45,016 bases of DNA from an uncultured Anaerovibrio sp. (GTDB lineage Bacteria > Bacillota > Negativicutes > Selenomonadales > Selenomonadaceae): contig CADACU010000034.1 in NCBI GenBank assembly GCA_902786545.1, positions 1 to 45,016 of the forward strand. The letters are read 5' to 3'. Shown here in pieces: positions 22,311-42,608 of this stretch; the first letter of the stretch is position 1, and every line of letters starts with the position of its first letter. The position numbers and the translations under genes are program-made. The notes below the pieces were generated by a model. The model saw only the letters and a list, made by a program, of their open reading frames with translations. It was not told the DNA's origin and did no database searches.

Positions 22311-22404
22311 TTATAACGAGCTTTAAGATGTCCCCCACCTCGTTGAAACGCTAATTGGAAGATTTTTCTTCTAAAGAAGAAAAATTTGAACAATGGCGTT
22401 ATAA
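22311..22404 (+). repeat. Modular hairpin repeat, copy 1 (short form, 94 bp)
   Basis: Runs from TTATAACGAG to GGCGTTATAA. The right module AACGCTAATTG...CAATGGCGTT with its inner AGATTTTTCTTC/GAAGAAAAATTT stem is complete. The left module is reduced: after CCCCCAC it jumps directly to CTCGTT, but the outer AACGAG/CTCGTT stem is kept. It lies between a leftward and a rightward gene. Confidence 0.85.
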
Positions 22405-22409
22405 AACAT

Positions 22410-22485
22410 AAAACGGGCAGCAACCGAACGCTACCCGTTTTACGCCATCTACCTATTTCCACCAAAACACTGTCCCCACAGTGTT
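22410..22485. other. Two hairpins before the ppx gene
   Basis: AAAACGGGCAG (22410-22420) pairs with CTACCCGTTTT (22431-22441) with one mismatch. AACACTGT (22466-22473) pairs perfectly with ACAGTGTT (22478-22485) around CCCC. The intergenic region 22164-22571 holds these, repeat copy 1 and an AT-rich promoter segment. Their role is unknown; terminators on either strand or a small RNA are possible. Confidence 0.4.
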
Positions 22486-22571
22486 CACCCAAGTCCTATA
22501 TTAGCATAATTTTATATGTTTAGCAATGTAATTATGGTATTATAAAGGAAAAAGTTTTGGGGGAAATAAAA

Positions 22572-23477
22572 ATGATTCAGGCGATTATCGATATAGGCTC
22601 AAATACTGTACGGATGGCCATTTACGATATAGAAGGAGACAAAATAGAATTTATTCATAAAAAAAAGCATATGCTGGGACTGGCAGCCTATCTTGATAAA
22701 AATGTAATGACCCAAGCGGGGATTGATAAGGTATGTGAAATTTTGGATGAATATAAGTCGTTCCTTCAAATATTCAGTATTGATAATGTTATTGCCTTTA
22801 CTACGGCAGCTCTTCGCAATTGTCATAACAGCCGTGAGGCAGTAGGAGAAATTATAAATAGGACCGGTATTGATATAAGGATTTTATCCGGGGATCAGGA
22901 AGCTGAATACGATTATGTTGGTGCTACAAGAAATATAAATATGGATGATGGATTGCTGGTAGATATCGGTGGGGGAAGTACTGAGCTGGTATATTACAAG
23001 AACAGGCATATAAAAAATATAATAAGTTTACCTATAGGTTCTTTAGGGTTGAAAACTGAATTTTGTAATTCAGTAATACCCAATAATGACGAAGTGGAAA
23101 AAATGTATGTGAAGGTCCGGGAAATAATGGCGGCTGCCACGGATTTTTCTGATATTAAAAGTGAGTCAATATGCGGGATTGGCGGAACATATAAGGGAAC
23201 CATGGCCCTTTATAATGCCCTTTACACTAATGATAAACGAAATGTGATGGCAGATTCAGGAAAAATAAAGGAAATGATAAGTCGTTTTGGAAAAAATGGA
23301 CGATTAAACCAGACTGATGCGGTTATATTTATGAAAAATATACCTGATAGGATAAATACTATTATTTCAGGTATGGTAATAGCCGATGTGATATCCGATA
23401 AATTCGGGGTAAAAAATATAGTTTACAGTGATTCCGGCGTAAGGGAAGGATTTATATATTCAGAAATAATAAAATGA
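22572..23477 (+). CDS. Ppx/GppA family phosphatase
   Basis: Protein of 301 residues of the actin-like fold. IDIGSNTVRMAIYD at the N-terminus and DIGGGSTELVYY near residue 133 are the phosphate loops of exopolyphosphatase and guanosine pentaphosphatase. It probably removes phosphate from polyphosphate or pppGpp, linking it to the stringent response. It is at the short end for the family and lacks the HD-like C-terminal domain of longer Ppx. ATG at 22572 has GGGGGAA upstream. It precedes gyrA by 113 bp. Confidence 0.85.
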   Translation: MIQAIIDIGSNTVRMAIYDIEGDKIEFIHKKKHMLGLAAYLDKNVMTQAGIDKVCEILDEYKSFLQIFSIDNVIAFTTAALRNCHNSREAVGEIINRTGIDIRILSGDQEAEYDYVGATRNINMDDGLLVDIGGGSTELVYYKNRHIKNIISLPIGSLGLKTEFCNSVIPNNDEVEKMYVKVREIMAAATDFSDIKSESICGIGGTYKGTMALYNALYTNDKRNVMADSGKIKEMISRFGKNGRLNQTDAVIFMKNIPDRINTIISGMVIADVISDKFGVKNIVYSDSGVREGFIYSEIIK

Positions 23478-23590
23478 TCCGGTAAGGACGGCTGTCCTAT
23501 TATTAGTGCCGGTGGTATTCCTAAAAGCCTTAAAATATGGTATAATTAAGCGTTGATTGAATTTCGAAATATGATTTTTGAGGTGAGATA

Positions 23591-26020
23591 GTGGAATTTG
23601 GTGAAGGTAAGATTTTACCTGTAAATCTGGAACAGGAAATGCGTAATTCTTATATAGATTATGCCATGAGTGTTATTGTATCCAGAGCAATCCCAGATGT
23701 GCGTGATGGCTTAAAGCCAGTTCATAGAAGAATTTTATATGCCATGCAGGAAGCGGGTATGACTTCCGGCAAGCCTTATAAGAAATCTGCCCGTATCGTC
23801 GGTGAAGTACTGGGTAAATATCATCCACACGGTGATAGCTCAGTATATGATGCTATTGTTCGTATGGCTCAGGATTTCTCCATGCGGTATCTTTTGGCAG
23901 ATGGGCACGGAAATTTTGGCTCTGTGGATGGAGATCCGGCGGCGGCCATGCGTTATACCGAGGTCCGTATGTCAAAAATTTCCGAGCTGATGCTGCAGGA
24001 TATTGACAAGGAAACGGTAGATTTCGTACCTAACTATGACGAATCATTAAAGGAACCATGTGTACTTCCGTCCAAATTTCCGGAGCTGTTGGTAAATGGT
24101 ACATCCGGTATAGCGGTAGGTATGGCTACCAATATTCCTCCACATAATATGAATGAGGTTATTGATGGCGTGCTTATGCTGATTGATAATCCTGATGCTA
24201 CAGCTGAGGAGCTGATGACTGTTATTAAGGGGCCTGATTTCCCTACTGGCGGTCTTATTATGGGAAACAGTGGTATCAAGAATGCTTATACCACTGGTCG
24301 CGGTCAAATAAAAATGCGGGCAAAGGCCAATATCGATACCATGGCCAATGGTAAGCCGCGGATTATTGTCAGTGAACTTCCTTATCAGGTAAACAAGGCT
24401 AAGCTGATTGAAAAGATTGCTGAATTGGTGCGGGATAAGCAAATAGAAGGTATTACCGACCTCAGAGATGAGTCGGACCGTAGCGGTATGCGGATTGTTA
24501 TTGAACTAAGAAAGGATATCAATCCTGATGTATTGCTGAATCAGCTGTACAAGCATACTCAGATGCAGGAAACCTTCGGTGTTATTATGCTGGCTTTGGT
24601 GGATAACCAGCCTAAGGTACTTACCTTAAAGCAGGTTCTTCACTACTATATCAAGCATCAGGAGGATGTAATTACCCGTCGTACCAGATATGAGCTGGCA
24701 AAGGCAGAAGCCAGAGCCCATATTTTGGAAGGATTGAATATTGCTCTTGATCATATTGATGCGGTAATCAGCACTATTAGGAGCAGCAGAACAGCTGACA
24801 TTGCCCGGGAAGCTCTGATGGAGGGCTTTAGTCTCAGTGAAAAGCAGGCTCAGGCTATTCTTGATATGCGTCTCCAGCGGCTTACCGGCTTGGAGCGGGA
24901 AAAGATTGAGGAAGAATATCAGGAAATCTTGAAGAAGATTGACTGGTTGAAGTCAGTATTGGCTGATGAGTGGAAAATTATGGAAATCATCAAGGAAGAG
25001 CTGACTGAGGTTAAGCAGAAGTTTGGTGATGAGCGCCGTACCAATATTACTCACGATATGAGTGAGATTGATATTGAGGATATGATTGCCGATGATGATG
25101 TAGTGGTTACTATTACCCATCGGAATTATATCAAGCGCATTAAGCTTGATACCTATAGAAGACAGAACAGGGGTGGTACCGGGGTAAATGGTATGCCAAC
25201 CAAGGAGGATGATTTTGTTGAAAATCTTCTGATTACCACCAACCATCACACTATTCTGTTCTATACCAACAAGGGTAGGGTATATTATCTCAAGGCTTAT
25301 CAGATTGCAGAAGCCAGTCGTACTGCCAAGGGAACGGCCCTGATTAACCTGTTGAAGCTGGATACAAATGAGAAGGTAACGGCGGTTATTCAGGTGCGGG
25401 ATTATGATCCGGAGAAGTATCTCTTTATGGCGACCAAGATGGGTATTGTAAAGCGTGTCAGCCTGTCTGACTTCAATACTTCCAGAAAGATTGGCGTTAT
25501 TGCCATTAACCTGGATGAAGGCGATGACCTGATTGGGGTTAAGATTACTGATGGTAAGCAGAAGATGATGCTGGGTACCAAAGATGGTATGGCCATTGCT
25601 TTCGACGAAGAACAGGTTCGGGTAATGGGACGAATTGCCCGTGGTGTAAAGGGTATCCGCCTTTCTAAGGGTGATGAGGTTGTAGCTATGGACACTCTGA
25701 AGGAAGATGCAGATGTACTTACTGTAACCGAATGTGGTTTAGGCAAGCGTACTACCATTGACCAGTATACGGTTCAGAACCGGGGTGGCAAGGGTTTGAT
25801 TAACCTGAAGGTTACGGAAAAGACCGGATCTGTTATCGGTATGTCTGTGGTGAAGGAAGATCATGAGCTGCTTTTGATTACAGCTTCCGGTGTGGTTCTT
25901 AGAACCTCTATCAGTGGTATAAGCCAGATTGGCCGGAATACCCAGGGGGTTATCATTATGAAGCCAGCTGAAGGGGATAAGGTATCGTCTATGGCAACCC
26001 TTCTGCAAAAGAACGATTAA
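23591..26020 (+). CDS. gyrA: DNA gyrase subunit A
   Basis: Protein of 809 residues, GTG start with GAGGTGA upstream. This is the cleavage and DNA-wrapping half of gyrase. The catalytic Tyr is Tyr122 in AAMRYTE. The quinolone-determining region reads [11 protein letters not shown] with Ser83 and Asp87, the residues of the susceptible form. A coiled coil with ARAREAL-type sequence follows, and the C-terminal beta-pinwheel has repeated blades; the GyrA box is seen as [12 protein letters not shown] (QRGGKG in many species). It is separated from gyrB by three genes. Confidence 0.97.
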
Positions 26021-26036
26021 GTTAATTTCAAAGCAT

Positions 26037-26070
26037 AAAAAATCGCTCTCATAAGAGAGCGATTTTTTTT
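26037..26070. terminator. Terminator after gyrA (bidirectional)
   Basis: AAAAAATCGCTCTC (26037-26050) pairs with GAGAGCGATTTTTT (26055-26068) around ATAA, with T-runs on both strands. It serves gyrA and the convergent LCP gene. Confidence 0.92.
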
Positions 26071-26076
26071 AACCAA

Positions 26077-27318
26077 TTATTGAGCAGTTTTGCCGGCAGA
26101 TGGTATACCTGGCGATGGTGCCGGTGATCTACCACCACTGCTTGGCTTTTTGCTAGGAACCGAATCCGATGTACTATCTTCTTGTTCGTACGGATCCTTT
26201 AACAGTCTGCTGTCAGTGGAAGGATTTTTAGCCTTCTTTCGGGTTTTTACCTCATCCTCATTTTCCTGCCGGTTCAACCGCTTGGTTTCCTCTGCGTTGA
26301 GTTCTACGGCATTGGTTGGTATAGATTCCTCATACTCCAGTGCATCCCTTTCCATGGAGTTTCGGATGCTGGTACTCATTGGCACATCCAGAGTATTGGC
26401 AATGGTAGTTCTGAGCTTGGATAAATCAGGCACCCAGTAGCTTACTCCATCAATATAGACAGGTTTGCCCGGCAGCATTTCTGATTGCAATCCTGAGTGC
26501 TTGGCTTCCTTTAAAGTAGTTAAAAATTCTATAATCTGTTTTACTGATAAATCAGTTCTGATACTGCTGACTACTTCTTTGACAATAGCCGGTATGCGTG
26601 GAATGATAGCCGGTGAAGTCAGCTTATCCATTACTGCCTGCATAAATTTTTGCTGGCGGCTGATACGGCCAATGTCACCCTCTTCGTCACGATAGCGTAC
26701 ATAGGTAATGGCTGTTTTGCCGTCCATATGCTGCATACCTGGTTGCAGGTCGATTAACAAGCCACCGTCATCATCCCAGATATCTTCGTAGTACATCCTT
26801 TTTTCAACATTTATATCCACACCACCGATGGCGTCAATAATCTTCTTAAAGGATTGGATGTTAATGATGACATAATGCTCCATCTGAACTCCAAGCAGAT
26901 TTTCTACTGTATCCTGAGTCAATTGGTAACCACCATAGGCATATGCTGCATTGATTTTATCAAATCCATTGCCCTTGATTTTTACTCTTGTATCTCGTGG
27001 GATAGACAGGATAGCTGCTTTTTTCTTTTTAGGGTCAAGAGTAGCCACCATTAAGGTATCGGAACGGCCCACATCGCCTTCACGCTCATCTACGCCCATA
27101 ATCATAACCATAATCTTGTCTTTGGCTACCATGAGATTTTCTTTATTAGGTTTGGCCGGTTTACTGAAAAAACCTGAGGAGGCAAAAAAAGCACCTGCCA
27201 AAGCGGCCATGATAAAGGCAACTAACAGCAAAAATATAGGCCAAAAGTGGCTTTTCTTTTTCCGGTGCCGTCGTGACCGGTATATAGGCTGTTGTTGCTG
27301 ATAATTTCTCTTTTGCAA
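26077..27318 (-). CDS. LCP (LytR-CpsA-Psr) family protein
   Basis: Protein of 413 residues. A basic N-terminus (RSRRHRKKKSHF) precedes one membrane helix at about residues 25-50. The LCP domain follows, with VMIMGVDEREGDVGRSDTLMV, LSIPRDTRVKI and AYAYGGYQLTQDTVENLLG, and the Arg-rich ITYVRYRDEEGDIGRISRQQKFM stretch. LCP enzymes move lipid-linked polymers onto peptidoglycan. The C-terminal 90 residues are disordered, rich in Ser, Pro, Glu and Lys. The start appears to be TTG with only a weak ribosome site. A role in attaching cell-wall glycans fits the family but not specifically this organism. Confidence 0.88.
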   Translation of the reverse strand: MQKRNYQQQQPIYRSRRHRKKKSHFWPIFLLLVAFIMAALAGAFFASSGFFSKPAKPNKENLMVAKDKIMVMIMGVDEREGDVGRSDTLMVATLDPKKKKAAILSIPRDTRVKIKGNGFDKINAAYAYGGYQLTQDTVENLLGVQMEHYVIINIQSFKKIIDAIGGVDINVEKRMYYEDIWDDDGGLLIDLQPGMQHMDGKTAITYVRYRDEEGDIGRISRQQKFMQAVMDKLTSPAIIPRIPAIVKEVVSSIRTDLSVKQIIEFLTTLKEAKHSGLQSEMLPGKPVYIDGVSYWVPDLSKLRTTIANTLDVPMSTSIRNSMERDALEYEESIPTNAVELNAEETKRLNRQENEDEVKTRKKAKNPSTDSRLLKDPYEQEDSTSDSVPSKKPSSGGRSPAPSPGIPSAGKTAQ

Positions 27319-27432
27319 AAATGTCGCTTCTTTCTATAATATGTAGGAAATTATAAAACAAACTGCCTTGATATTATACGGTTAAAAAAAAACTAATGCA
27401 ACAAATATGTGAAATTTATTAAAAAAATTAAA

Positions 27433-27592
27433 ATATCCACAGAATGAGTTGGATATTTTGGTAAATTATTATCTATATATTGTGTATGAGGAGAATTTTA
27501 CTACCATATATTGAGTTTTCCACAAAGTTATCAACATTATCCACAGAAAATGGACACTTTCTATGTGAATATTTACAGGAAAATGTGGATAA
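27433..27592. promoter_or_regulatory. DnaA-box cluster outside the main origin (right)
   Basis: The 400-bp gap between the LCP gene and cdd contains ATATCCACA (27433-27441, one mismatch), TTTTCCACA (27516-27524, one mismatch), TTATCAACA (27528-27536, one mismatch), TTATCCACA (27537-27545, perfect) and TGTGGATAA (27584-27592, perfect). It is about 14 kb right of the dnaA-upstream cluster. A 61-codon open frame across it is not believed to be a gene. Confidence 0.65.
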
Positions 27593-27717
27593 CTTATGTA
27601 TTAAAGCAATGAATTTTATACTTGAAATTAAAAATTACATTGATAAAATTGTATATATAGAATAAAATTAACTTGTAGAGCTGTACATTTAATTGAAAGA
27701 AAAGGAGCCAGGATAGT

Positions 27718-28182
27718 ATGATTAACGAAGAAATTTGTGATACCATGATTAAAATGGCCAAGGATGCCAGAATGAAATCCTACAGTCCTTATTCAAAGAT
27801 TAAAGTTGGTGCCTGCATTTTGGCATCTGATGGTACCTTGTATTCAGCCTGCAATGTTGAAAACGGCTCAATGAGTTTGACTGTATGCGCTGAGCGTGCG
27901 GCGGTTTATAAGGCTGTATCCGATGGAAAAAGAGAATTTGATGCTGTGGCAGTAGTTGCTGACACAGAAAATCCATTTGTGCCTTGTGGTGGATGCCTGC
28001 AGGTAATGGCTGAATTTGATATCAATGAAATTGTTATGGCCAATCTTGATGGCGATATAAGAGTTATGCAGCTCAGTGAACTGGCCCCGTTTGTTTCTTA
28101 TATGGGTATTAACCATGTCAAGGAGCACTACGAAGACCACTTCAGTATCTTTGGTTTTGATGATGAAGATGAGCTGCTGTAA
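27718..28182 (+). CDS. cdd: Cytidine deaminase
   Basis: Protein of 154 residues that converts cytidine and deoxycytidine to the uridine forms for pyrimidine salvage. The zinc site is visible as CNVENGSMSLTVCAERAAV (catalytic Glu in C-A-E) near residue 50 and PCGGCLQVMAEF near residue 85. The SPYSKIKVGACIL N-terminal block is typical. The C-terminal 25 residues extend beyond the common 130-residue form. AAGGAG precedes the ATG, and the gene ends in a long hairpin terminator. Confidence 0.94.
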   Translation: MINEEICDTMIKMAKDARMKSYSPYSKIKVGACILASDGTLYSACNVENGSMSLTVCAERAAVYKAVSDGKREFDAVAVVADTENPFVPCGGCLQVMAEFDINEIVMANLDGDIRVMQLSELAPFVSYMGINHVKEHYEDHFSIFGFDDEDELL

Positions 28183-28207
28183 GACAATAGAATAGTGCTG
28201 TGCCTAT

Positions 28208-28258
28208 AAAAGTCCTATGGAAATTGCAATAATAATTGCCAAAGTCATAGGACTTTTT
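28208..28258 (+). terminator. Terminator after cdd
   Basis: AAAAGTCCTATG (28208-28219) pairs with CATAGGACTTTT (28246-28257). An inner GCAAT/ATTGC stem stabilises the loop and five T follow the stem. Confidence 0.88.
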
Positions 28259-28326
28259 GTATAATGTAAAAGTGTTTCAGTTAATAACTAATAGCATTAA
28301 AGATAAAGGATTATTTAAGGTATATT

Positions 28327-30051
28327 TTGAAGATTATGGAATGGAAAAAGATTGATTGTAGGGAAACAAGTAAGCTAAAAGGGATAATGGTGTTAATCGG
28401 CTGGTTTGCTTTAATGTATGCAGCCAATGCCTTAATGCCACTTTATCGGGACGATTATTGGTCCGGGCTGATTTGGAAAACCGGTAATCACCTGGAATCT
28501 ATGGGTGATGTGGTTTTATCCCTTGAGCGGTATTATTTGTTACATGGTGGACGATTGGTCAGCTTTTTTATACAGTTTGTATTTATGCTGGTAGGGAAAA
28601 ACTGGTTTAATATGGCCAATGCCTTAGTGTTTGCCGTGATGTGTGCCGTGATGGTAATGCATGTGAGAAGAAGAATAGATTGTCTGGATAAACCGGGGCT
28701 GCTGTTTTTGGCTGGGCTGTTTATGTGGCTTGGATTATCCCATTTTGGTGAGGTAGCCATCTGGCTGTGCGGCTCGACAGTTTATTTATGGACAGGGCTT
28801 TTTACGGCTATTTTCCTTATCCCATATAATTTTTCCTTGGCTGGTACCATGCAGCTGCCCGATGGCTGGCTGACCATTACTATGCTCCTATTGGGGGTAA
28901 TTGCTGCCTGCTCGGTCGAAAATCTTACTGTTACAACCACATTACTGGTTTTTTGGTGTTGCTGGCATGCGCATCGGCAAGGATGTTTTAAATACTGGAT
29001 GGGTACCGGTGCAGTGGGCTCATTGATAGGAAGTGTGATTTGCCTTATTGCTCCCGGTAATTTCGTTCGTATTGAGGAGGATCAGGATCGGTCTTGGCTG
29101 TTTCATTTTCTTAACCAGATTGTTGGAAATTTGGAAATGATTTTGTATATGATGCCAATTATTATGACATTGGTGTTGGCCGTGCGGCTGCTATATCTTG
29201 AGACAGCAAAACGGCGGGGGATAGAGGCAGTTCCTGTATCAAAAGGCCAGCATCCCTATCTTCTGCTGACTATTTTGCTGGTGACTATAGTTTCATTTTC
29301 CACGACCGGGTTTGTGGGGCAAACTATCGAGGATGCCATTGTTTATGGCTTTTTTTTGCCATTAGGTATAAATGACTTGGTGTTATTTGATCATTTTCAT
29401 AATACAATGCAGGGGTTTGAGGAAGCATTTATCTATTTGGCGGGTATCGCATATGTATACCTTATCAGTGTACGATCCCTGGGGGTGTTTAAGGAACGCA
29501 TCCGTTGTGTGAAAGAAAAAATTCCTTGCCGATTGCTGGTAGAGGATTTTCCAGAGCTTCGTTATGGGGCATTTCTCATAGGCCTGTGTTTTTTCAATAA
29601 TGTAATGATGATAGGGGCACCATCCTTTCCAGGCAGGGCCTTGTTTAGCTCAACAATAATGTTTATTATTGGTGTTATGGTGATTTTGGACATTGACGAG
29701 GTAAAGGAAAGATTATTTATTCGGCCGGAGGGTAGAAACTGGCGTGTAGGCGGTTCTTGTCTTCTTACTTTCATTGTATTGGCAACTATGTTGGTACTAT
29801 ATAGTATTTGGCGGGAAGACACCACCCGGATGGCGTATATTGCCCAGGAAGCTGCAGCAGGGAAAAAGGTTGTTCATATTGCACCCAGTGATATTCCGGA
29901 GCAGCGGCGTGTTCTACGTCATATTGCCTATGACGATTTTGATACCGGGCTGACCCATGATCCTGTTTGTGATTATTATGGATTGGATAAAATAATCATT
30001 GATGGGAATATGACCATTGAAGATGTTAAATCGCAGATTTCAAAGAAATAA
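28327..30051 (+). CDS. Polytopic membrane protein, DUF6056-like (possible GT-C glycosyltransferase)
   Basis: Protein of about 574 residues with ten or more membrane helices. After the first helix comes PLYRDDYWSGLIW, where the paired Asp in the first outer loop resembles the catalytic site of GT-C glycosyltransferases; HGGRLVSFFIQFVF follows. This layout matches DUF6056 proteins, which probably move sugars from lipid carriers. The C-terminus ends in a soluble domain of about 90 residues. The TTG at 28327 has AAGG 6 nt upstream; ATG at 28336 would shorten it by three residues. No substrate can be assigned. Confidence 0.6.
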   Translation: MKIMEWKKIDCRETSKLKGIMVLIGWFALMYAANALMPLYRDDYWSGLIWKTGNHLESMGDVVLSLERYYLLHGGRLVSFFIQFVFMLVGKNWFNMANALVFAVMCAVMVMHVRRRIDCLDKPGLLFLAGLFMWLGLSHFGEVAIWLCGSTVYLWTGLFTAIFLIPYNFSLAGTMQLPDGWLTITMLLLGVIAACSVENLTVTTTLLVFWCCWHAHRQGCFKYWMGTGAVGSLIGSVICLIAPGNFVRIEEDQDRSWLFHFLNQIVGNLEMILYMMPIIMTLVLAVRLLYLETAKRRGIEAVPVSKGQHPYLLLTILLVTIVSFSTTGFVGQTIEDAIVYGFFLPLGINDLVLFDHFHNTMQGFEEAFIYLAGIAYVYLISVRSLGVFKERIRCVKEKIPCRLLVEDFPELRYGAFLIGLCFFNNVMMIGAPSFPGRALFSSTIMFIIGVMVILDIDEVKERLFIRPEGRNWRVGGSCLLTFIVLATMLVLYSIWREDTTRMAYIAQEAAAGKKVVHIAPSDIPEQRRVLRHIAYDDFDTGLTHDPVCDYYGLDKIIIDGNMTIEDVKSQISKK

Positions 30052-30066
30052 ATGTACATATACCAT

Positions 30067-30109
30067 AATAAAATGGCTGTGAAAAAAATTTTTTCACAGC
30101 CATTTTATT
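30067..30109. terminator. Bidirectional terminator
   Basis: AATAAAATGGCTGTGAAAAA and its complement form a near-perfect stem of about 20 bp with almost no loop, T-runs on both strands. It separates the DUF6056-like gene from the convergent rrf2 gene and overlaps the last codon of the latter. Confidence 0.88.
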
Positions 30110-30518: not shown

Positions 30519-30544
30519 TTTTTTGCCTCCTTGTAAAAGAATCT

Positions 30545-30624: not shown

Positions 30625-30655
30625 TGGCACAACGAAGGGAAGGAGGACAATATCA

Positions 30656-31840: not shown

Positions 31841-31877
31841 ATCATATTATGTATTTGTTTTTAGAAGGAGAAATAAA

Positions 31878-32249: not shown

Positions 32250-32262
32250 TATTTTTTATAAA

Positions 32263-32296: not shown

Positions 32297-32329
32297 TTCA
32301 TCAGTAAGTTAGAAAAGAGGTGTAAAGAT

Positions 32330-33833: not shown

Positions 33834-33877
33834 TGAGTTGATATTTCGTTTGGGCAATAGTGATTGGAGGAATTGTT

Positions 33878-34810
33878 ATGTCAAATATATATAAAGGAAC
33901 TTTGGGCCTGGTAGGCAACACACCTCTGGTTGAAGTAACAAATATTGAAAAGGAACTTGGTCTAAACGCCACTGTGCTGGTAAAGCTGGAATATTTTAAT
34001 CCGGCAGGCAGTGTAAAGGATCGTATTGCCAAGGCAATGATTGAGGCAGCTGAGGAAAAGGGGCTGTTAAAGGATGGTTCCGTTATTATAGAGCCGACTT
34101 CTGGTAATACTGGAATTGGCTTAGCTGCTATTGCTGCTGCCAAGGGGTATCGGATTATTTTGACCATGCCGGAGACTATGAGTGTTGAACGCCGCAATAT
34201 CTTGAAGGCATATGGGGCAGAGATCGTCCTTACTGAAGGGGCAAAAGGGATGAAGGGCGCCATCGCCAAGGCAGAAGAGCTGGCCAAGGAAATTCCGGAC
34301 AGCTATATTCCAGGCCAATTTATCAATGGAGTCAATCCAGCTACACATAAAGCTACCACTGGTCCGGAGATTTGGAAGGATACAGATGGCAAGGTAGATA
34401 TTTTCATTGCCGGCGTTGGTACTGGTGGCACTGTAACCGGTGTAGGAGAATTCCTGAAGGAACAGAACAGTAAGGTTAAGATTGTTGCTTTGGAACCAAA
34501 GGATTCACCGGTTCTTTCTGAGGGAAAGGCTGGATCCCACAAGATTCAGGGCATTGGGGCCGGTTTTGTACCGGATGTATTGAACACCAAGATCTATGAT
34601 GAAGTATTTAAGGCCGCCAATGAGGATGCTTTTGCAGCTGCCAGATTGCTGGCTCACAAGGAAGGTATTTCTGTAGGTATTTCCTCCGGAGCAGCCCTTC
34701 ATGCAGCTATTGAGTACGCCAAAAAGCCGGAAAACAAGGGTAAGGTTATTGTAGCCTTGTTGCCGGACAGTGGAGATCGTTATTACTCTACGCCGTTGTT
34801 TACAGAATAG
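33878..34810 (+). CDS. cysK: Cysteine synthase A
   Basis: Protein of 310 residues that makes cysteine from O-acetylserine and sulfide. PLP Lys47 lies in [22 protein letters not shown] binds substrate, GTGGTVTG contacts the cofactor phosphate, and [12 protein letters not shown] is conserved near residue 265. ATG at 33878 has TGGAGG at 33865-33870; an earlier in-frame GTG is not needed. In CymR-type systems CysK also binds the Rrf2 regulator, so its regulon position is suggestive. Confidence 0.95.
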
Positions 34811-34928
34811 AACAACTAGCAGGCCGCACTCCCTTGCTGGGATGGTAAGGGAGCAGTGGTGGGGGTAAAGGCTGCTGTCTACACTCAAAAAGTTAATGCC
34901 ATTTGAAGATCTCATACATGACCCCATT

Positions 34929-34972
34929 AAAATACCGCATATAGCCTTTTTGACGGCTATATGCGGTATTTT
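34929..34972. terminator. Terminator after cysK, abutting repeat copy 2
   Basis: AAAATACCGCATATAGCC (34929-34946) pairs perfectly over 18 bp with 34955-34972. The final T residues are shared with the TTATAACG end of the repeat. A second stem, CTCCCTT/AAGGGAG (34829-34835/34847-34853), lies closer to cysK. Confidence 0.88.
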
Positions 34973-35140
34973 ATAACGAGCTTTAAGATGTCCCCCACCT
35001 TTTTAGGTGAGGGAAAACAAACTACAACAGCTGGCGAGCATATCTCCCAGCTCGTTGCGACGCGAAGCTAGTCCTTTAGGGAAACGCTAATTAGAAGATT
35101 TTTCTTCTAAAGAAGAAAAATTTGAACAATGGCGTTATAA
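34971..35140 (+). repeat. Modular hairpin repeat, copy 2 (170 bp)
   Basis: Full form: TTATAACGAGCT, the CCCCCACCT/AGGTGAGGG arms, CAGCTGG...CCAGCTCGTT, a linker containing GACGCGAAGCTAGTCCTTTAGG, then the right module to GGCGTTATAA. The left outer stem is AACGAGCT with AGCTCGTT. Confidence 0.88.
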
Positions 35141-35176
35141 TTTAATGTATGGATTTTTTCTTAAAGCGGCCACCTA

Positions 35177-36139
35177 CTATATCATGAACCGGAAGGCATT
35201 GTCATCCTTTTCTATGGCAATGTCTTTTAGTTTGTCCACCTCCAAACGGGTAACTACGCAATAAATTACTTTCTTTGGATCACCGGTGTAGGCTCCCATG
35301 CCCTTTATAAAAGTGACGCCCCGGCCCAACCGGCTCATAAGTGCATCAGCTATTTCATCACTTTCATCCGAGACAATCATTACCGCGTAAGATTCATCCA
35401 GACCTTTTATAACTACATCAATCATCTTGGAAATAACGAAATAGGCTACCAATGAATACATGGCCTTGTCCCAGCCAAAGATGAATCCGGCGGCACCCAG
35501 AATGAAGACATTGAAGAAAAGTACTACTTCCCCAACGGAGAAGGTGGAGCGTTTGTCCACTATTATGGCTACGATTTCCGTACCATCCAGGGAGCCACTG
35601 TTACGGATAATCAGACCAACACCAGCCCCGGCGACAATACCACCGAATATGGCCGCCAAAAAGAAATCATCGGTTACCTGGGCAATTGGTTCAAAATATT
35701 GCGTCCACAGCGACAGCAAAACAATGGCTATAATAGTTGATATGGAAAAGGTTTTTCCAATATGTTTATAACCTAAATACAGAAATGGTAAATTGATAGT
35801 CAGCATAAAGACGCTGAATTCAATATCGGTCAGATAGGACGCCATAATGGAGATACCAACTACGCCACCATCAATAATCTGGTTAGGAATCAGAAATATC
35901 TCCAGTCCGGCTGCGTATAGACAGGCTCCGACACAGAGAATAATAAATTTCTTTATATAGCTGCCAATGGTTTTCTTTTTCCTGATCAATTTCTTTTTGA
36001 TACCGATATCAGTTACTATTTGATCTTGTGCATTTGTATCATTGATTTCAGCTGTATTTATATTGTTATCTACAGTGTGGTCATTTATTTCATTATTTAT
36101 GATCTTTTCATCAGTATGGTTTTTGTTCTGTTCATTCAT
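35177..36139 (-). CDS. YitT family membrane protein
   Basis: Protein of 320 residues with two standard YitT parts. Five or so membrane helices (about residues 65-230) begin with FIILCVGACLYAAGLEIFLIPNQIIDGGVVGISI, and a soluble DUF2179 domain follows at about 235-320 (SYAVMIVSDESDEIADALMSRLGRGVTFIKG). The function of YitT proteins is not established. An unusual hydrophilic, Asn/Asp-rich N-terminal extension of about 60 residues comes before the first helix, ending in KKKLIRKKK. AGGTGA precedes the ATG. Confidence 0.87.
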   Translation of the reverse strand: MNEQNKNHTDEKIINNEINDHTVDNNINTAEINDTNAQDQIVTDIGIKKKLIRKKKTIGSYIKKFIILCVGACLYAAGLEIFLIPNQIIDGGVVGISIMASYLTDIEFSVFMLTINLPFLYLGYKHIGKTFSISTIIAIVLLSLWTQYFEPIAQVTDDFFLAAIFGGIVAGAGVGLIIRNSGSLDGTEIVAIIVDKRSTFSVGEVVLFFNVFILGAAGFIFGWDKAMYSLVAYFVISKMIDVVIKGLDESYAVMIVSDESDEIADALMSRLGRGVTFIKGMGAYTGDPKKVIYCVVTRLEVDKLKDIAIEKDDNAFRFMI

Positions 36140-36194
36140 AGTCTCACCTCTGTATTATTATTAAAGCACAATACAGGGACTGGTACAAGAGAAA

Positions 36195-36228
36195 TAAAAA
36201 GAACCCAGCCCCAAAAGGAGCTGAGTTC
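36195..36228 (-). terminator. Terminator after the phosphodiesterase gene
   Basis: Read leftward, GAACTCAGCTCC pairs with GGGGCTGGGTTC (12 bp with two G-U) around TTTT and is followed by TTTTT. It works only on the minus strand because the G-U pairs become mismatches on the plus strand. Confidence 0.85.
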
Positions 36229-36251
36229 AATTTGTTTATCCAAGCAGGATA

Positions 36252-37424
36252 TTAGTAAGCTGCGTCAGTACCGCCAGCCATCTTGTGAGTATCAACTTCA
36301 CGATGGTTTGGCTCGAGGTGATACTTAGCTACGGCTACCTTCTTGGTAGGACGGAGCTTAGCACCCTTCTTCTCGAGGTAAGCACGGAGAATCCAAGGCT
36401 TATCGGAAATCATACCGTCAACGCCCATGTTGTAGAGCTGATCCATAGCTTCGATGCTGTTTACAGTCCAAGGAACAACCTTCATGCCCAAGGAATGTGC
36501 AAGATCTACATCATCAGTGCTGATTTCTGGATAGTATGGAGAAATAACTTCTGCACCGAAGGAATGAGCTGCATTGATAACCTTAGCATTTACGGAGCTG
36601 CCTGGGAACTTTCTTACATCCAAGCCACCGAGCCATGGAGAAATGTTTGGCTCGAACATACGGATGCACTCGGAATCACGACCCCAAGAAGGCTGCTCGC
36701 ACCACAGAGCGGAGCAAGTGATGTTAGGGTCAATCTTCTTCATTTCAATCAAGGTAGCCCAGTCGAAGGACTGCAGAACTACATGATCCTGCATGTTGTA
36801 CTGCTTAACCTTGTCATAGAATACGCGAACGAACTTCTTGACATCAGGAGTATGCTTGTAACCCTCTGGATACTCAGGATCTGGATAGGACTTAGTCTCG
36901 ATGTTTACGAGGCCCTGATAACCGGAATCCTTGATCAGCTGGAAGAGTTCATCAATAGTAGGAATCTCAGCACTAGCTGGAGTTACCTGAGACTTACCAT
37001 GACCATTGTAGTAATGATCTGGATTGGTAATAGGGTCCATAACACCAACATCGAACTTCTTGATTTCAGGAACAGTCATAGTACGGAGATCGTACTTGCC
37101 AGCCTCAACATACTTGTTGGTTCCCTTATAACGAGTGATGTCTGGGTTCAGTACAGGGTTATGGCTCATTACGATCTGGTTGTCAGCAGTGAGCTGCATG
37201 TCGCACTCGATGGAAGTACCACCCATCTCGATTGCATAAGCATAAGAGTAAAGAGTGTTCTCTGGACGAGCATCACGACCACCACGATGTGGCTCAAAAT
37301 CGAAATAAGTGTCGAGGTCTGCCTTTGCCTCAACCTGTGCTGGAGCTACGAAGCTCTGGATACCCATAGTTGCTACTGCAGCTAATACCCCCGCTGCTAA
37401 AGCATGTTTCTTAGAAAGTTTCAT
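36252..37424 (-). CDS. glpQ: Secreted glycerophosphodiester phosphodiesterase
   Basis: Protein of 390 residues that splits glycerophosphodiesters into glycerol 3-phosphate and an alcohol. A signal peptide (KKHALAAGVLAAVATMGIQSFVAPAQVEA, cut about residue 32) precedes the GDPD barrel. Motifs: HRGGRDARPENTL with the catalytic His, ECDMQLTADNQIVMSHNP with metal ligands, and NIETKSYP near the middle. ATG at 37424 with GGAGGT is preferred over the longer frame from 37499. Codon use is strongly skewed to CTC, AAG, GGT and CGT, suggesting high expression. Substrate is inferred from family only. Confidence 0.9.
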   Translation of the reverse strand: MKLSKKHALAAGVLAAVATMGIQSFVAPAQVEAKADLDTYFDFEPHRGGRDARPENTLYSYAYAIEMGGTSIECDMQLTADNQIVMSHNPVLNPDITRYKGTNKYVEAGKYDLRTMTVPEIKKFDVGVMDPITNPDHYYNGHGKSQVTPASAEIPTIDELFQLIKDSGYQGLVNIETKSYPDPEYPEGYKHTPDVKKFVRVFYDKVKQYNMQDHVVLQSFDWATLIEMKKIDPNITCSALWCEQPSWGRDSECIRMFEPNISPWLGGLDVRKFPGSSVNAKVINAAHSFGAEVISPYYPEISTDDVDLAHSLGMKVVPWTVNSIEAMDQLYNMGVDGMISDKPWILRAYLEKKGAKLRPTKKVAVAKYHLEPNHREVDTHKMAGGTDAAY

Positions 37425-37805
37425 CAATAATACCTCCTGCTTGTTAATTAAGTTTATTAACCATAGCCTAAGTATAAAAGCTGATATTTCAAATGTCAAG
37501 AGAGTAAAAGTGGTTATGAATGTTGATGCTATCTACGATAGGCGGATTTTAACCTTAATTCTGAATAGTAAAAAATCCTCAAAGCCTTGCTGTGTAGGCA
37601 CTTAGACAATTATGACCAAGTGATAATTAGTAATATAAATCAAGATAAAATATTGGTAAATAAATTTATAATTTTTCAGAATTTTTTCATCTCTTGATGC
37701 TAAATACTTGATTTTTACATTTGTAACATAGATAATGAAATTGTGTTTACAATTATGTGAACAAGAATTCTTATCTGTAGGAAATTGTGGGGGAGGATAG
37801 GGGTT
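37425..37805. promoter_or_regulatory. Divergent promoter region with a candidate SorC operator
   Basis: The 380-bp gap is AT-rich. GTTTACA (37745-37751) and TGTGAAC (37756-37762) form an inverted repeat with a 4-bp centre and 6 of 7 matches, about 45 bp before the SorC start. No promoter is clear for either gene. The rest holds no recognisable feature. Confidence 0.4.
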
Positions 37806-38744
37806 ATGAACCGCGATAGGGATAAGCTTTCCATAAATGTGGCAAGGCTTTATTACCGGTCTGAATACAGCCAGCAGCGTATTGCCGAGGAGCTGGGCAT
37901 ATCCAGGCCATCAGTATCAAGATTGTTGCAATATGCCAAGGACAAGGGGTATGTAAAAATCCAGATTATGGACCCGATAGAGGATATGTCCAATATGGAG
38001 CAGATGCTTGTGGAGAAGTATCATCTCCAGGAAGTCCGGATAGCTTCGTCTACACTAAATGACGAAAATGAAATTAAAAAGTACATTGGTATAAAGGCAG
38101 CTGAGTATCTGGATTCTATCGTTCAGGATGGCGATATTATTGGTGTTGGTTGGGGGACCACATTATATAATATGTCCTGTTCGTTACTGCCGAAGGAACT
38201 GAAGGGGGCGCAGATTGTTCAGCTGGAGGGTGGTGTTACTCATTCCAAATGGCGGAACTATGCCAAGGATATATTGGATAATTTTTCCAATAACTATACC
38301 ACTATTGCCCAGTATCTGCCGTTGCCGGTTATATTTGGCAGTCGCGAGGTAAAGGAAATGGTGGATCAGGACCGTCATATAAAACGGGTTTTGGAGTTGG
38401 GTAACCATGCCAATATAGCTATTTTCAGTGTTGGTACTGTGCGGCCAAATGCCCTGTTTTTCCGGTTGGGCTACACTGATGCAGATGAAAAAACCAAAAT
38501 TCAGAAAACAGCTGTGGGAGATATTTGTTCCAGATTTTTTGATGCAGATGGACGGATATGCAACAAGGAATTGGATGCAAGAACAGTAGGTATAACCCTT
38601 GATGAACTGCGGTCAAAGGAACATAGCATAATGATTTCCGGTGGCGAAGCCAAGGTTCAGGCCATCAAAGCAGCGTTGAAGGGCCGTTATGCTAATGTAC
38701 TCATAACGGATCAGTTTACTGCCAAGCAGCTGCTGTCAGAATAA
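37806..38744 (+). CDS. SorC-family sugar-binding transcriptional regulator
   Basis: Protein of 312 residues. The N-terminal helix-turn-helix is YSQQRIAEELGISRPSVSRLLQYAKDKGYV (about residues 20-50). The effector domain resembles phosphosugar isomerases: GVGWGTTLYNMS near residue 120 and the IVQLEGGVTHSKW block. Regulators of this family, such as DeoR and CggR, respond to phosphorylated sugars. No sugar catabolic operon is adjacent, so the target is unknown. ATG at 37806 follows a GGGG-rich stretch. Confidence 0.87.
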   Translation: MNRDRDKLSINVARLYYRSEYSQQRIAEELGISRPSVSRLLQYAKDKGYVKIQIMDPIEDMSNMEQMLVEKYHLQEVRIASSTLNDENEIKKYIGIKAAEYLDSIVQDGDIIGVGWGTTLYNMSCSLLPKELKGAQIVQLEGGVTHSKWRNYAKDILDNFSNNYTTIAQYLPLPVIFGSREVKEMVDQDRHIKRVLELGNHANIAIFSVGTVRPNALFFRLGYTDADEKTKIQKTAVGDICSRFFDADGRICNKELDARTVGITLDELRSKEHSIMISGGEAKVQAIKAALKGRYANVLITDQFTAKQLLSE

Positions 38745-38754
38745 TTTAAAAAAT

Positions 38755-38812
38755 AAGGACAGGAACAATTTGTACCCCACGCTAACGGGTGCAAATTGCT
38801 CCTGTCCTTTTT
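38755..38812 (+). terminator. Terminator after the SorC gene
   Basis: AAGGACAGGAACAATTTGT and its near-complement (GCAAATTGCTCCTGTCCTT) form a long stem with few mismatches and a loop of about 9 nt, followed by TTT. Confidence 0.85.
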
Positions 38813-38825
38813 GTATGTAGTTTTC

Positions 38826-38970
38826 TATAACGAGCTTTAAGATGTCCCCCACTTCTTTAGGTGGGGGAAAACAAACTACAATAGCTGGCGAGCATATCTC
38901 CCAGCTCGTTGAAACGCTAATTGGAAGATTTTTCTTCTAAAGAAGAAAAATTTGAACAATGGCGTTATAA
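38826..38970 (+). repeat. Modular hairpin repeat, copy 3 (about 145 bp)
   Basis: Starts TATAACGAGCT (the first T is C here) and ends GGCGTTATAA. The left module is full with CCCCCAC/GTGGGGG and AGCTGG...CCAGCTCGTT. The linker found in copies 2 and 4 is missing, so CTCGTT joins directly to GAAACGC. It follows the SorC terminator. Confidence 0.87.
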
Positions 38971-39087
38971 TACCGGTTTTTAATTTGTTATGACACAATC
39001 CTGACAACACTTTCTAATTAGTTATTGTCCATTCATGCTTTTTAATCAGTAGCTTCTCATTTCGCATTCTTCATTCATAATTAGTAA

Positions 39088-40854
39088 TTACCCTATTCCC
39101 ACCATCTTTAGCAAGAATTGTGCATTGGTGGTTTGGCATGGCCCATCCTTCATCAGGTAATCAAAGACGAGTTCATTATCCCTATAGTGTTCTTCAAAAT
39201 GATAATTGTTAACTGGCAGTTCACTGCCGACTTCAATACGGCACAGTTCAAAATCATGGGTGGATACCATGGTGATGACATTTCTCATGGTTAAGTGGTC
39301 AAGGGCCGTTTTGGCACAGATGATGCGGTCTGCGGAATTAGTTCCTTTGAATATTTCATCGATAACCAGAAAAAGCTGTTTATTTTGTTCTGCTTCGGTA
39401 ATCATAGCCTTTATTCTGGTCAGTTCGGCATAAAATGTGGAGATGCCGTTAGCCATATCGTCATTTACCCGGATGGAGGTAAGGACAGTCATAGGAGTGA
39501 TAGCAAATCTTGTAGCGCATACCGGCGCTCCGGCATAAGTCAGTATGCAGGCACTGGCCAAAGTTCGTAGCCAGGTGGTCTTGCCGGACATATTTGAACC
39601 GGTGATAATGTTCAGTGATGGGGTTAAGTCAATGGAATTGGCAATGCTGTCTTTTTCTGGAATAAGCACATTATGGAGATTTTCTGTTTCCAGTTTGGGA
39701 CTTGTTGCCTCGATGAGTATTGGCATAACGGTGTCATTTCTGGTGTGACCAATGGTGGACAAGCTGATGGCTGCTTCTGCTTCATTCCACAAGGAAAGCC
39801 AATAGGTCAGCTTCGTACCGTATTTTTTTTGCCAATTTGTAAAGAGATTTACAATATGAAAATCCCACAGGAAGAGAAAATTTAATAGAAAAAGAAGAAT
39901 GAAATTATGGCGCATTTCGGCCAATACACATAATTTTCCCAGCTGTTTAATGGGTGCCAGAGCTTTTTTTATTTCATCCCGGCTGATATGACCGATGGTG
40001 TCAGGCAGTATATCCTGCATGGCATTGAGCAGTTGATAGTAATATACCAGTTCCTTATTTAGCCTGTATAATGGCGTAATATGGGTGCTGGTTTTAGGTA
40101 ACAGCAGCAGGGCAGCGGCCAACTGCAGGGAAAATAGAATCAAGGGTACCTGCATCGGTACTACATTGAACAAGGATAATACCAGCAGTCCCATGGATAG
40201 TAAAGGAAAATAAATGCTTATTTTGGTAAAGAAAGCCGGATAATCACCTTCCCGGTCGGCCAGATAATTCAGCAGTTTATCCATACGGTGATTTAAGGGG
40301 ATTTGTAGACTGAGAGCTTGGAGATGCAGGGCATCTGTAGGATGTTCAATAAAAAATTGTGTTTCTGCCTGCCGGCACAGTAATTCTTCTTTGGTTACCG
40401 GAAAGGGGGTCAGTCGATTGGCCAGCAGGCGCCGCCCGGCATGGGTTCTGGCCACAGAGCAATACTGATATATTGAGGATGGGCCGATTATATTGAGATC
40501 TGCATCTTGAGTAAACCCTCGTTCAGTAAAATCGCTTCCATTGTCAGGAAATTTTGACCACTGACCGGTATATCTTGCCAAATAATTGTTTATGACCTGA
40601 TACTTATTTTCTGCATAGATAAGGTCATCGTGCAAATCGCTATGGGCTTTTATCAAATAAAAGAAACAGGCCAAAATAGCTACAGACAGGGAAAATAGCC
40701 AAGTATGGCCAAAGTCATAGGCAGCCGCCACCGATATGACAATGAGGATAAAGGCAATAGTCCGTTTGGTGGTATAGAGTTGACTCTTCTTTTTATATTC
40801 CTCAATAGTGGCCTTTGTTTGGGCGGCAAGCTGTTCAAAAAAATTTTGTTCCAT
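39088..40854 (-). CDS. Membrane-anchored MutS-family ATPase
   Basis: Protein of 588 residues. An N-terminal pair of helices (residues about 28-65) and a second hydrophobic group near 215-255 and 325-345 mark it as a membrane protein. The C-terminal ATPase domain of MutS follows: Walker A GSNMSGKTTWLRTL near residue 416, DDMANGISTFYAELTRIK, and Walker B LFLVIDEIFKGTNSADR, with the switch His-like STHDFEL. The mismatch-recognition domain of true MutS is absent, so mismatch repair is unlikely. This subgroup of membrane MutS paralogues has no firm function. Confidence 0.8.
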   Translation of the reverse strand: MEQNFFEQLAAQTKATIEEYKKKSQLYTTKRTIAFILIVISVAAAYDFGHTWLFSLSVAILACFFYLIKAHSDLHDDLIYAENKYQVINNYLARYTGQWSKFPDNGSDFTERGFTQDADLNIIGPSSIYQYCSVARTHAGRRLLANRLTPFPVTKEELLCRQAETQFFIEHPTDALHLQALSLQIPLNHRMDKLLNYLADREGDYPAFFTKISIYFPLLSMGLLVLSLFNVVPMQVPLILFSLQLAAALLLLPKTSTHITPLYRLNKELVYYYQLLNAMQDILPDTIGHISRDEIKKALAPIKQLGKLCVLAEMRHNFILLFLLNFLFLWDFHIVNLFTNWQKKYGTKLTYWLSLWNEAEAAISLSTIGHTRNDTVMPILIEATSPKLETENLHNVLIPEKDSIANSIDLTPSLNIITGSNMSGKTTWLRTLASACILTYAGAPVCATRFAITPMTVLTSIRVNDDMANGISTFYAELTRIKAMITEAEQNKQLFLVIDEIFKGTNSADRIICAKTALDHLTMRNVITMVSTHDFELCRIEVGSELPVNNYHFEEHYRDNELVFDYLMKDGPCQTTNAQFLLKMVGIG

Positions 40855-40882
40855 AAGTGAACCTGCTTTCTGTCAAATTACT

Positions 40883-41060
40883 TTATAACGATCTTTAAGA
40901 TGTCCCCCACCTCTTTAGGTGGGGGAAAACAAATTACAACAGCTGGCTAACATATCTCCCAGCTCGTTGCGACACGAACGAAGTGAGTTAGTCCTTTAGG
41001 GAAACGCTAATTGGAAGATTTTTCTTCTAAAGAAGAAAAATTTGAACAATGGCGTTATAA
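40883..41060 (+). repeat. Modular hairpin repeat, copy 4 (178 bp)
   Basis: The longest copy: TTATAACGATC, CCCCCACCT/AGGTGGGGG stem, CAGCTGG...CCAGCTCGTT, an expanded linker with GACACGAACGAAGTGAGTTA, then the full right module to GGCGTTATAA. One outer-stem base is changed (ACGATC for ACGAGC). Confidence 0.87.
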
Positions 41061-41241
41061 TTATACTCTAAAAGCACTGTTTTTTTGCTGGAAAATGAAG
41101 AATTTTAATTTTTTGGGGGAACAAATTAAAAAATGTTTTTCATCGGTGGACAAAACAGGCTGGAATTACTATAATTGATTTAGGAAAGATTGGAAATTGT
41201 GCGAATTTTCAATTAAATTTAGTTTTAGGAGGAGAGAAAGT

Positions 41242-42477
41242 ATGTCAGAAGAAAGTAAGGGTTCAATTCTCGACAGCCTGGGCAAGTGGATTATAATTGC
41301 CACTGTACTTGGTGCTGTTGTTGGTCTGGTGATGGGTCCACCAGCCCACATGTTTGCTCCAATTGGTGATTTGTTTATGTCACTGATCAAAATGGTAGTA
41401 GTACCTATGGTTTTTTTCTCATTGGTGGGTGGAGCTGCTTCTTTGGGAAATTCCAAGGGTGCTGGAAAAATCGGTCTTATAACCTTTATTTATTATGGTG
41501 TTACCACGGCGGTAGCAGTAGCCCTGGGCTTGTTCTTCAGTGAGATGTTCAAGCCGGGTGCTGGTATCAATATGGCTGCTATTTCCGAGGCAGCTATCGA
41601 TATCGATATGTCCCAGAGTGGTCAGATACCAGGTTTTTGGGAGACGGTAATAGGTTTCGTTCCAACCAATCCGTTTGCTGCCCTGGTACAGGGTAATATT
41701 CTGCAGACCATCGTATTTGCTCTGTTTGTAGGTTTTGCTCTTTCCGCTCTCGAGGCTGAGAAGAAAGAGTTTATGGTTAAAATTTTCAATTTCTTTACTG
41801 AAATCTTTATCAAGGTTATGACTGCCATTATGTGTGTAGCTCCTATCGGTGTATTTGCATTGATGGCTGACGCCACTGGTACCTTTGGTTATGATGTGCT
41901 GGTGAAAATCATCAACCTTATTGTTCTATATGTAGTTGTTTTGGCTATTGTTACCTATGTGATGATTGGTGGAACTGTGGCCATGTTCTCCAAGAAGGTT
42001 GGGTATATCCAGTTCTTTAAGAGCATGTGGAAATGCCAGGTATTCGCCTTCTCCACAGCTTCTTCCATGGCTACTTTGCCACTCAATATGAAGACCAATG
42101 AGGAAGAGTTCGGTTTGAACAAGGGTACTGTTTCCTTTGCTCTGCCATTGGGTGCTACCATCAATATGAATGGTAATGCTGCATACTATGCCATGGCAGC
42201 TACCTTTATTGCCCAGATGTATGGCATGGAGCTGAGCTTTGGTCAGTATGTGGCCATCATCGTTACTTCTACCTTGGGTGCAGTTGGTCAGGCTGGTGTA
42301 CCTGGTCCTACCCTGCTGGTAGTTGCTGTACTGGTAGCTGCCGGTATTCCAATCGAGGCTCTGCCAATTCTCTTCGGTGTAGACCGTATATTTGATATGC
42401 TTCGTACCGCAGTTAATATCACCGGTGATGCTGCCTGCGCTTGTATCGTAGACCGCTTCCGGGAAGAAGAAGCATAA
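41242..42477 (+). CDS. Dicarboxylate/amino acid:cation symporter
   Basis: Protein of 411 residues of the SDF (glutamate/dicarboxylate transporter) family, which takes up C4-dicarboxylates or acidic amino acids with Na+ or H+. Eight membrane helices and two hairpins are expected. The Ser-rich hairpin appears as FSTASSMATLPLN and the unwound helix as GATINMNGNAAYYAM (many relatives have NMDG). The C-terminal DRIFDMLRTAVNITGDA is a substrate-binding signature. ATG at 41242 has AGGAGG upstream. Codon use is strongly biased. Confidence 0.9.
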   Translation: MSEESKGSILDSLGKWIIIATVLGAVVGLVMGPPAHMFAPIGDLFMSLIKMVVVPMVFFSLVGGAASLGNSKGAGKIGLITFIYYGVTTAVAVALGLFFSEMFKPGAGINMAAISEAAIDIDMSQSGQIPGFWETVIGFVPTNPFAALVQGNILQTIVFALFVGFALSALEAEKKEFMVKIFNFFTEIFIKVMTAIMCVAPIGVFALMADATGTFGYDVLVKIINLIVLYVVVLAIVTYVMIGGTVAMFSKKVGYIQFFKSMWKCQVFAFSTASSMATLPLNMKTNEEEFGLNKGTVSFALPLGATINMNGNAAYYAMAATFIAQMYGMELSFGQYVAIIVTSTLGAVGQAGVPGPTLLVVAVLVAAGIPIEALPILFGVDRIFDMLRTAVNITGDAACACIVDRFREEEA

Positions 42478-42493
42478 TTCATAAGCCTTTCCC

Positions 42494-42522
42494 AAAGGGA
42501 CTAGCGTAGCTAGTCCCTTTTT
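42494..42522 (+). terminator. Terminator after the symporter gene
   Basis: AAAGGGACTAGC (42494-42505) pairs perfectly with GCTAGTCCCTTT (42509-42520) around GTA, followed by T. The arm resembles the linker of the hairpin repeat (GCTAGTCCTTTAGGG). Confidence 0.88.
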
Positions 42523-42546
42523 GTATGTTGTTATTTAAATTTCGAC

Positions 42547-42608
42547 GAAACGCCAAATAGAATATTTTCCCATTTAATAATGGGAAAATTTGAACAATTG
42601 CGTTATAA
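42547..42608 (+). repeat. Modular hairpin repeat, copy 5 (divergent right module)
   Basis: GAAACGCC to CGTTATAA. The inner stem is ATTTTCCCATT/AATGGGAAAAT instead of AGATTTTTCTTC/GAAGAAAAATTT, so the sequence is changed on both arms but pairing is kept. TTTGAACAAT...CGTTATAA matches the other copies. No left module with TTATAACGAG is present. Confidence 0.78.

Follow-up and report, generated by a model that had tools for sequence, protein, structure and literature searches.

The bcr1 repeat of the Bacillus cereus group is dispersed and structured, about 155 bp long and without a known mobiliser, while the BOX elements of Streptococcus are modular, with optional internal modules and dispersed copies. 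To our knowledge, many small structured bacterial repeats still lack a known mobiliser. In the portion of PMC2229807 drawn on here, the mobiliser of such repeats is called a question for future work, and RUP is described as resembling IS630-Spn1. Here, we describe small mobile elements that make up one family, present in Anaerovibrio as well as other Selenomonadaceae, starting from five copies on a 45,016-nucleotide contig of an uncultured Anaerovibrio sp. (CADACU010000034.1, hereafter the window), which belongs to a 2.23 Mb draft genome of 105 contigs (G000; G-numbers denote genomes and L-numbers loci). Like ERIC/IRU, RUP and Correia/NEMIS as outlined in that source, the element is shorter than 200 bp, A+T-rich and free of protein genes, with TA at its termini; target duplication and folded structures are further common points, and promoters, which part of those repeats carry, may be another (PMC2229807). 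It is mostly ~140-177 bp long and present in many dispersed copies, as are miniature inverted-repeat transposable elements (MITEs), and is very probably a non-autonomous mobile element that duplicates TATA. The explanation preferred overall, which the evidence favours modestly, is a MITE-like element inserting at TATA whose left end would be recognised mainly by shape.

The insertion site was defined from 117 distinct copies, found by patterns with TATAAC (one mismatch allowed) and GTTATA (three allowed). The sequence at their edges is W-TATA|A..(left)..GT|TATA-A; position +5 is A in 115 copies, -5 is W in 97 and -4 is T in 111. To compare filled and empty sites, the two flanks were connected through 0, 2, 4, 6 or 8 letters of the TATA repeat. 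Exactly one TATA was best in 12 of 19 distinct comparisons and shared a tie in 4; in the remaining three, all with poor flank alignment, '0' (two) or TATATA (one) was best, and TA alone was best in none of the 19, occurring only within two ties. As insertion leaves one TATA on each side, the target duplication is 4 bp, TATA, and not the TA that the preliminary description had proposed and that marks MITEs derived from IS630/Tc1-mariner. Target-site duplication with empty sites is thus found here, as in MITEs. Six of the 12 rows with TATA best compare with the right end of another element, representing nesting rather than simple empty sites, and the other six correspond to five sites (L066/L135, L074/L138, L121/L079 in two rows, L165/L151 and L183/L182). 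The cleanest pair, identical at 32/32 bases, is L121 of A. lipolyticus LB2005 (filled; CATGGA-TATA-(element)-TATA-AAGGACAAG) and L079 of A. lipolyticus DSM 3074 (empty; CATGGA-TATA-AAGGACAAG). L079 also has two filled sites with similar flanks, so that one repeated flank is seen in both states. The nested L191 matches L104 at 86% over 195 bases; the two appear to be one locus, in one case carrying a second element and in the other lacking it. In contigs C7, C14, C16 and C24 of G017, right ends stand in tandem about 70-77 nt apart and are probably nested insertions; the figures for these arrays, as for the copy 2 genome search, the gene comparison, the 121-genome scan and the covariance-model counts below, hold among the matches listed.

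The left hairpin changes its whole sequence between copies, while self-complementarity between TAT and GA is kept. In the short form, this hairpin lies directly after TAT and directly before GA-AACGC, and 69 distinct left modules, chosen by pairing, display 23 different outer stems. A test with less bias used every distinct 8-letter 3' arm in front of GA (48 in all, those of long-linker copies among them) and drew on the 126/148 distinct right modules that follow GA. Of these arms, 21/48 have an exact complement of 5 bp immediately behind an upstream TAT, where shuffling the upstream sequence gave 0.1 and swapping arms between copies 5.3; for an exact 6-bp complement, the count was 18/48, against 0.03 and 3.0, respectively. 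The 27 missed arms comprise roughly a dozen from long-linker copies and a few (L260, L271) with loops shorter than the script allowed. In most copies, only TATAACG/CGTTATA is common to both ends. At L136:2790-2885, a left module stands alone with TATA directly at both ends, and the left module may therefore move or persist without the right one.

The right module, AACGC-(A/T-rich hairpin)-TTTGAACAATNGCGTTATA, shows compensatory changes and complementarity beyond controls. Among 32 diverse right modules, pairing reaches 94.5% of cells, compared with 88.0% for shuffles and 34.5-50% for slid structures; 8/13 pairs change on both sides, and double-change cells number 24 against 7.1 in shuffles. 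These 32 remained of 46 representatives after 14 had been dropped as palindromic or inverted (L105, L119 twice, L191 twice, L222), carrying an internal duplication or deletion (L009, L012), oddly spaced (L084, L142, L150, L159, L220) or artefactual (L063). Near-palindromes with ~20 bp inverted right-type ends (TATAACGCNATTGTTCAAA...) occur at L105:5795-5846, L119:4356-4410 and L191:594-653 and are possibly the simplest form of the family.

The five copies in the window, all found where the preliminary description had placed them, are built as follows.

Copy 1, 22312-22403, plus strand: internally deleted left module and full right module (22347-22403), TATA at both ends.
Copy 2, 34972-35139, plus strand: left module (34972-35056), linker (35057-35082) and right module (35083-35139), TATA at both ends.
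Copy 3, 38826-38969, plus strand: left module (38826-38910), GA junction (38911-38912) and right module (38913-38969), no linker.
Copy 4, 40884-41059, plus strand: left module (40884-40968), longer linker (40969-41002) and right module (41003-41059).
Copy 5, 42547-42607, plus strand: GA junction and diverged right module (42549-42607), with a decayed left module.

A covariance model of the right hairpin (R1) scores 66-69 bits at all five sites, and the next best matches in the window, at 14.3 bits, are the reverse strands of copies 1 and 3. The preliminary description was partly confirmed. It was correct in placing a linker in copies 2 and 4 and none in copies 1 and 3, and its mobile miniature element of unrecognised family is supported by copy number and by the precise empty sites in relatives; no family of Rfam 15 reaches its gathering score in the window. 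Copy 1, taken as near-complete, keeps only AACGAG..CTCGTT of the left module, without GGTGGGGG and CAGCTGG. The stems described as enclosed in one another are alternatives rather than nested, since a single AGCT of the 3' arm would have to serve both AACGAGCT and CAGCTGG. Copy 5 had been called partial, which holds for its left hairpin (decayed, apparent 3' arm CGAC-GA, with a boundary that may be TTAT at 42531-42534) and fails for its right module, which is full and of a diverged lineage. A likeness to the preQ1-II riboswitch at 35013-35124 (23.9 bits, 47 required) is not believed.

Related genomes give several of these sites without the element. For copy 1, the counterpart is L289 (G004), where the insertion models '0' and TATA tie, and the right TATAAT of copy 5 aligns with a TATAAT of G008 and G015, both lacking the module. 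The syntenic spacer of G010 is without copies 2, 3 and 4, and copy 3 is also missing from those of G006, G008, G012, G013 and G015; none of these spacers can be aligned at single-base precision. Allowing two mismatches, the linker core GCGACGCGAAGCTAGTCC was seen 61 times within elements and 7 times alone, one of the 7 in a diverged element. Because it occurs outside elements, at 42802-42825 of the window, L056:1501, L060, L147 and L148:2429, it may be a small repeat of its own.

Against shuffles, RNA folding of the plus strand gave z-scores of -6.4 for copy 2 and -8.0 for copy 3, while folding as DNA gave -5.1 and the other strand -4.9. A strand preference read from a first count (G.T 106 against A.C 8) was discarded, as the scoring favoured G.T. 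Under neutral scoring, right hairpins show 15 G.T against 6 A.C (158/210 right ends with a clear hairpin), and alignment A1 shows 6 against 3 without the sixth base-stem pair and 17 against 3 with it.

Blastn with the 167-base copy 2 found 43 matches in G000 and matches in 18/60 genomes, G000 included. By R1, there are 83 matches in G000, 21-98 in nine congeners (G002, G004, G006, G008, G009, G010, G012, G013 and G015) and none in six (G001, G003, G005, G007, G011 and G014), with 19/60 genomes matching overall, again including G000; 98 candidates per genome were scored under strict filters, so the counts may be low. The genome-wide covariance search proposed earlier thus returned dozens of copies per carrier congener. 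Allowing one mismatch, the right-end pattern occurs in 39/121 Selenomonadaceae genomes, against 0 for the reversed control. The same right end lies in at least 107 stretches of named records, and the 80 listed bear mostly Anaerovibrio titles, the remainder being Selenomonas, Selenomonadaceae, Veillonellaceae and a few unrelated ones. Seven weak right-module matches (best E 1.9e-6) were seen in G052, which is one of the 19 matching genomes and belongs to another family in the same class. Phages and plasmids gave no blastn match to copy 2, and viral contigs no match to one exact right-end pattern. As the carriers are on the whole closer kin of G000 than the non-carriers, the pattern may represent one gain in the clade plus presence in other genera. 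Among the matches listed, copy 3 is 99% identical to copies in G013 and G006, copy 4 is 98% identical to one in G013 and copy 2 98% to one in G006, whereas window genes share 66-86% with G013 and 69-80% with G006, which indicates recent or horizontal spread. Judged from these identities, the contrast points to either recent movement of the element between species or replenishment from very similar masters. Elsewhere, the best match of copy 2 is 92-97% in other carriers and 81% in G004.

In the preferred explanation, the element inserts at W-TATA-A between genes, with TATA remaining on each side, and its body is made up of two hairpins side by side, in the order TAT-(left)-(GA or linker)-(right)-ATA. 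An enzyme acting in trans would read the conserved right end by sequence, and the same enzyme would recognise the left end mainly by shape. Recognition by fold is proposed because the sequence of the left end is free while complementarity and junction are fixed; taken by itself, it is a tentative proposal, rated somewhat short of an even chance. Tandem arrays would arise where one copy inserts into the TATA that closes another copy on the right. The right end supplies TATAA(T) to the downstream flank, and its solo form may be part of a promoter. It could further be speculated that the left end is set by fold alone, so that any hairpin between TAT and GA serves, and that an enzyme of an undescribed kind joins a folded single strand (DNA or an RNA copy) to an easily melting TATA, as in promoters, but this stronger version is unlikely.

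Gene context bears on the possibility that the element regulates genes in cis, as a promoter or RNA leader kept by selection, and has spread by recombination rather than transposition. Gene calls and context classes were made by a simple open reading frame (ORF) script. All 117 copies lie outside predicted ORFs; transcription of the right neighbour runs away from the element in 79 cases and toward it in 34, the other 4 being unclassified. Regulation would fit the orientation of the copies, as the right end faces the downstream start in 53/67 codirectional contexts (binomial p 2e-6). A start follows at a distance of 10-70 nt from the right end in 37/79 cases and from the left end in 8/39 (p 0.008). 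Regulation would also fit part of the right ends lacking a recognised left part or base stem (21/118 by a crude classifier, some cut by contig ends), since 8/21 of these lie 34-58 nt before a same-strand gene. One solo right end (L158:2550-2588), with its TATAAT finishing 11 nt before a tRNA-Thr gene and an upstream gene ending close by, is a candidate outward promoter. Nevertheless, selection for regulation is an improbable account of the family: 19/117 copies lie between convergent genes, near-identical copies sit at unrelated loci, empty sites are precise at TATA, and a T at +6, giving TATAAT, shows no excess near starts (19/37) over copies whose right neighbour lies on the opposite strand (14/34; p 0.48). 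The idea that insertion is aimed at promoter -10 boxes was set aside as weak. This T is not enriched, and -35-like matches (at least 4 of 6) occur in 11/37 copies near starts and 6/34 with an opposite-strand neighbour, against 13.8% in shuffles. Solo right ends are shared by similar genes in two genomes, namely glucose-6-phosphate isomerase (L271 and L286) and a 306-codon methionine aminopeptidase-like gene (L272 and L274), the names being read from translations (L271, L286, L272) or from equal length and leader (L274) rather than from a family search. At L028:1300-1500 (G000:C5), CRISPR-like repeats GTTTTAGTTCTATGTT stand beside a left-truncated copy with an NNN gap.

The remaining alternatives concern the enzyme. 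One of them, an IS200/IS605-type or REP/RAYT-type element that moves as a single strand by means of a hairpin-recognising Y1 HUH transposase, would explain the structured ends and the pairing of the 5' foot of the right hairpin with its 3' end. This is very improbable, as Y1 (PF01797) is absent from 5/10 genus carriers (G000, G010, G012, G013 and G015, of which three have a completeness of 99% or more) but occurs in 5/6 non-carriers, and as a duplicated TATA target is not expected for IS200/IS605-type elements. Much more serious is a conventional MITE that a double-strand DDE transposase moves by way of short inverted ends (ACG..CGT together with subterminal sequence of the right end), with incidental hairpins whose arms are kept complementary by replication template switching, to which we give roughly one chance in three or a little better. 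A 4-bp duplication and inverted ACG..CGT ends are compatible with DDE chemistry in general, the near-palindromic copies with ~20 bp inverted right-type ends (L105, L119, L191) suit it, and so does the lack of an established strand preference under neutral scoring. Yet the left end of two-hairpin copies has only TATAAC(G) in common with the inverted right end, and no tested DDE family tracks the carriers, although most DDE families were outside the test. IS630-type DDE_3 (PF13358) is found in 0/16 genomes of the genus, so no IS630-derived MITE is indicated. Two or more carriers with at least 99% completeness lack PF01609, and the same holds separately for PF00078 and PF13751, the reverse transcriptase PF00078 from six carriers in all. 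The rve domain (PF00665) occurs in the most complete carriers and is missing from G000, G009 and G010, all incomplete; since only less complete carriers lack it, an IS3-like mobiliser is possible. Several points weigh against the preferred explanation. Template-switch correction of palindromes, its main rival, could keep the arms complementary without any recognition of shape; template switching between imperfect inverted repeats has been described, as far as the consulted portions of PMC7202029 and PMC8604942 go. TATA at -3 to -1 and the base stem of the aligned right modules were partly imposed by the search patterns. Gain and precise loss are not told apart by the site comparisons, as a hairpin between short direct repeats can be lost by slippage. 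Because neutral scoring shrinks the G.T excess, there is at most a lean to the plus strand and no strand is established. None of the six protein families, PF01797, PF13358, PF01609, PF00078, PF00665 and PF13751, tracks the carriers; inverted right-type ends 0.6-6 kb apart form only two pairs among 327 sequences; and 20/132 left ends have no right end within 260 bases, three of them having one further off.

A transposase gene with matching ends was looked for among the sampled sequences and not found. The earlier remark that no transposase is nearby is borne out for the 15 different ORFs of the window that were scanned (8 and 10 in two scans, three common to both), out of 61 listed, and no element with an evident transposase inside was seen at sampled loci around matches. 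L084 (5.2 kb) and L155 (2.0 kb) were considered as autonomous partners and rejected, as their enclosed genes do not look like transposases. The distant-end pairs of L136, L157 and L282 likewise bound no evident transposase; two look like chance matches and one is the solo left module, the L136 interval holding this module and three ordinary-looking ORFs (read by eye rather than by family scan). Neither the IS1634-like insertion sequence in G004 and G015 (both sides aligned) nor the IS1182-like loci in G008, G009, G010, G014 and G000, some of them cut or degenerate, showed TATAACG-type inverted ends. In G001, a non-carrier, L246 shows a 14/20 pair of TATAAC ends.

Since some congeners have dozens of copies and others none, it is practical to search for the enzyme. 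Should shape be what marks the left end, the family is a natural experiment in which many different hairpins occupy one functional position. The strictness of the TATA target and the way in which copies face gene starts suggest promoter remodelling in rumen fermenters. Among the matches listed in a search of open-access literature on repeats in Anaerovibrio, Selenomonas or Negativicutes, or on TATA target duplication, the family is not described. Compared with known systems, it differs from bcr1 in sequence, host and target and from BOX in modules, boundaries and target. Hairpin ends are shared with REP/BIME/REPIN with RAYT and with IS200/IS605, from which the element differs, as far as the consulted parts of those accounts go, in that Y1 transposase does not track carriers and TATA is duplicated (PMC2817692, PMC3116915, PMC6006769). 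Unlike RUP, it has no matching insertion sequence here, DDE_3 being absent from the 16 genomes searched. Promoters are known within repeats of this sort, according to the portion of PMC10969869 used, and promoter activity alone would therefore not be new. By kind, the element stands with ERIC, RUP, Correia and similar repeats, from which, as they are presented in the portion of PMC2229807 used, it differs in its unrelated sequence and host, its 4-bp TATA duplication and its two adjacent hairpins, the left one kept in fold and not in sequence. What sets the element apart is thus the combination of a TATA duplication with a sequence-free left hairpin.

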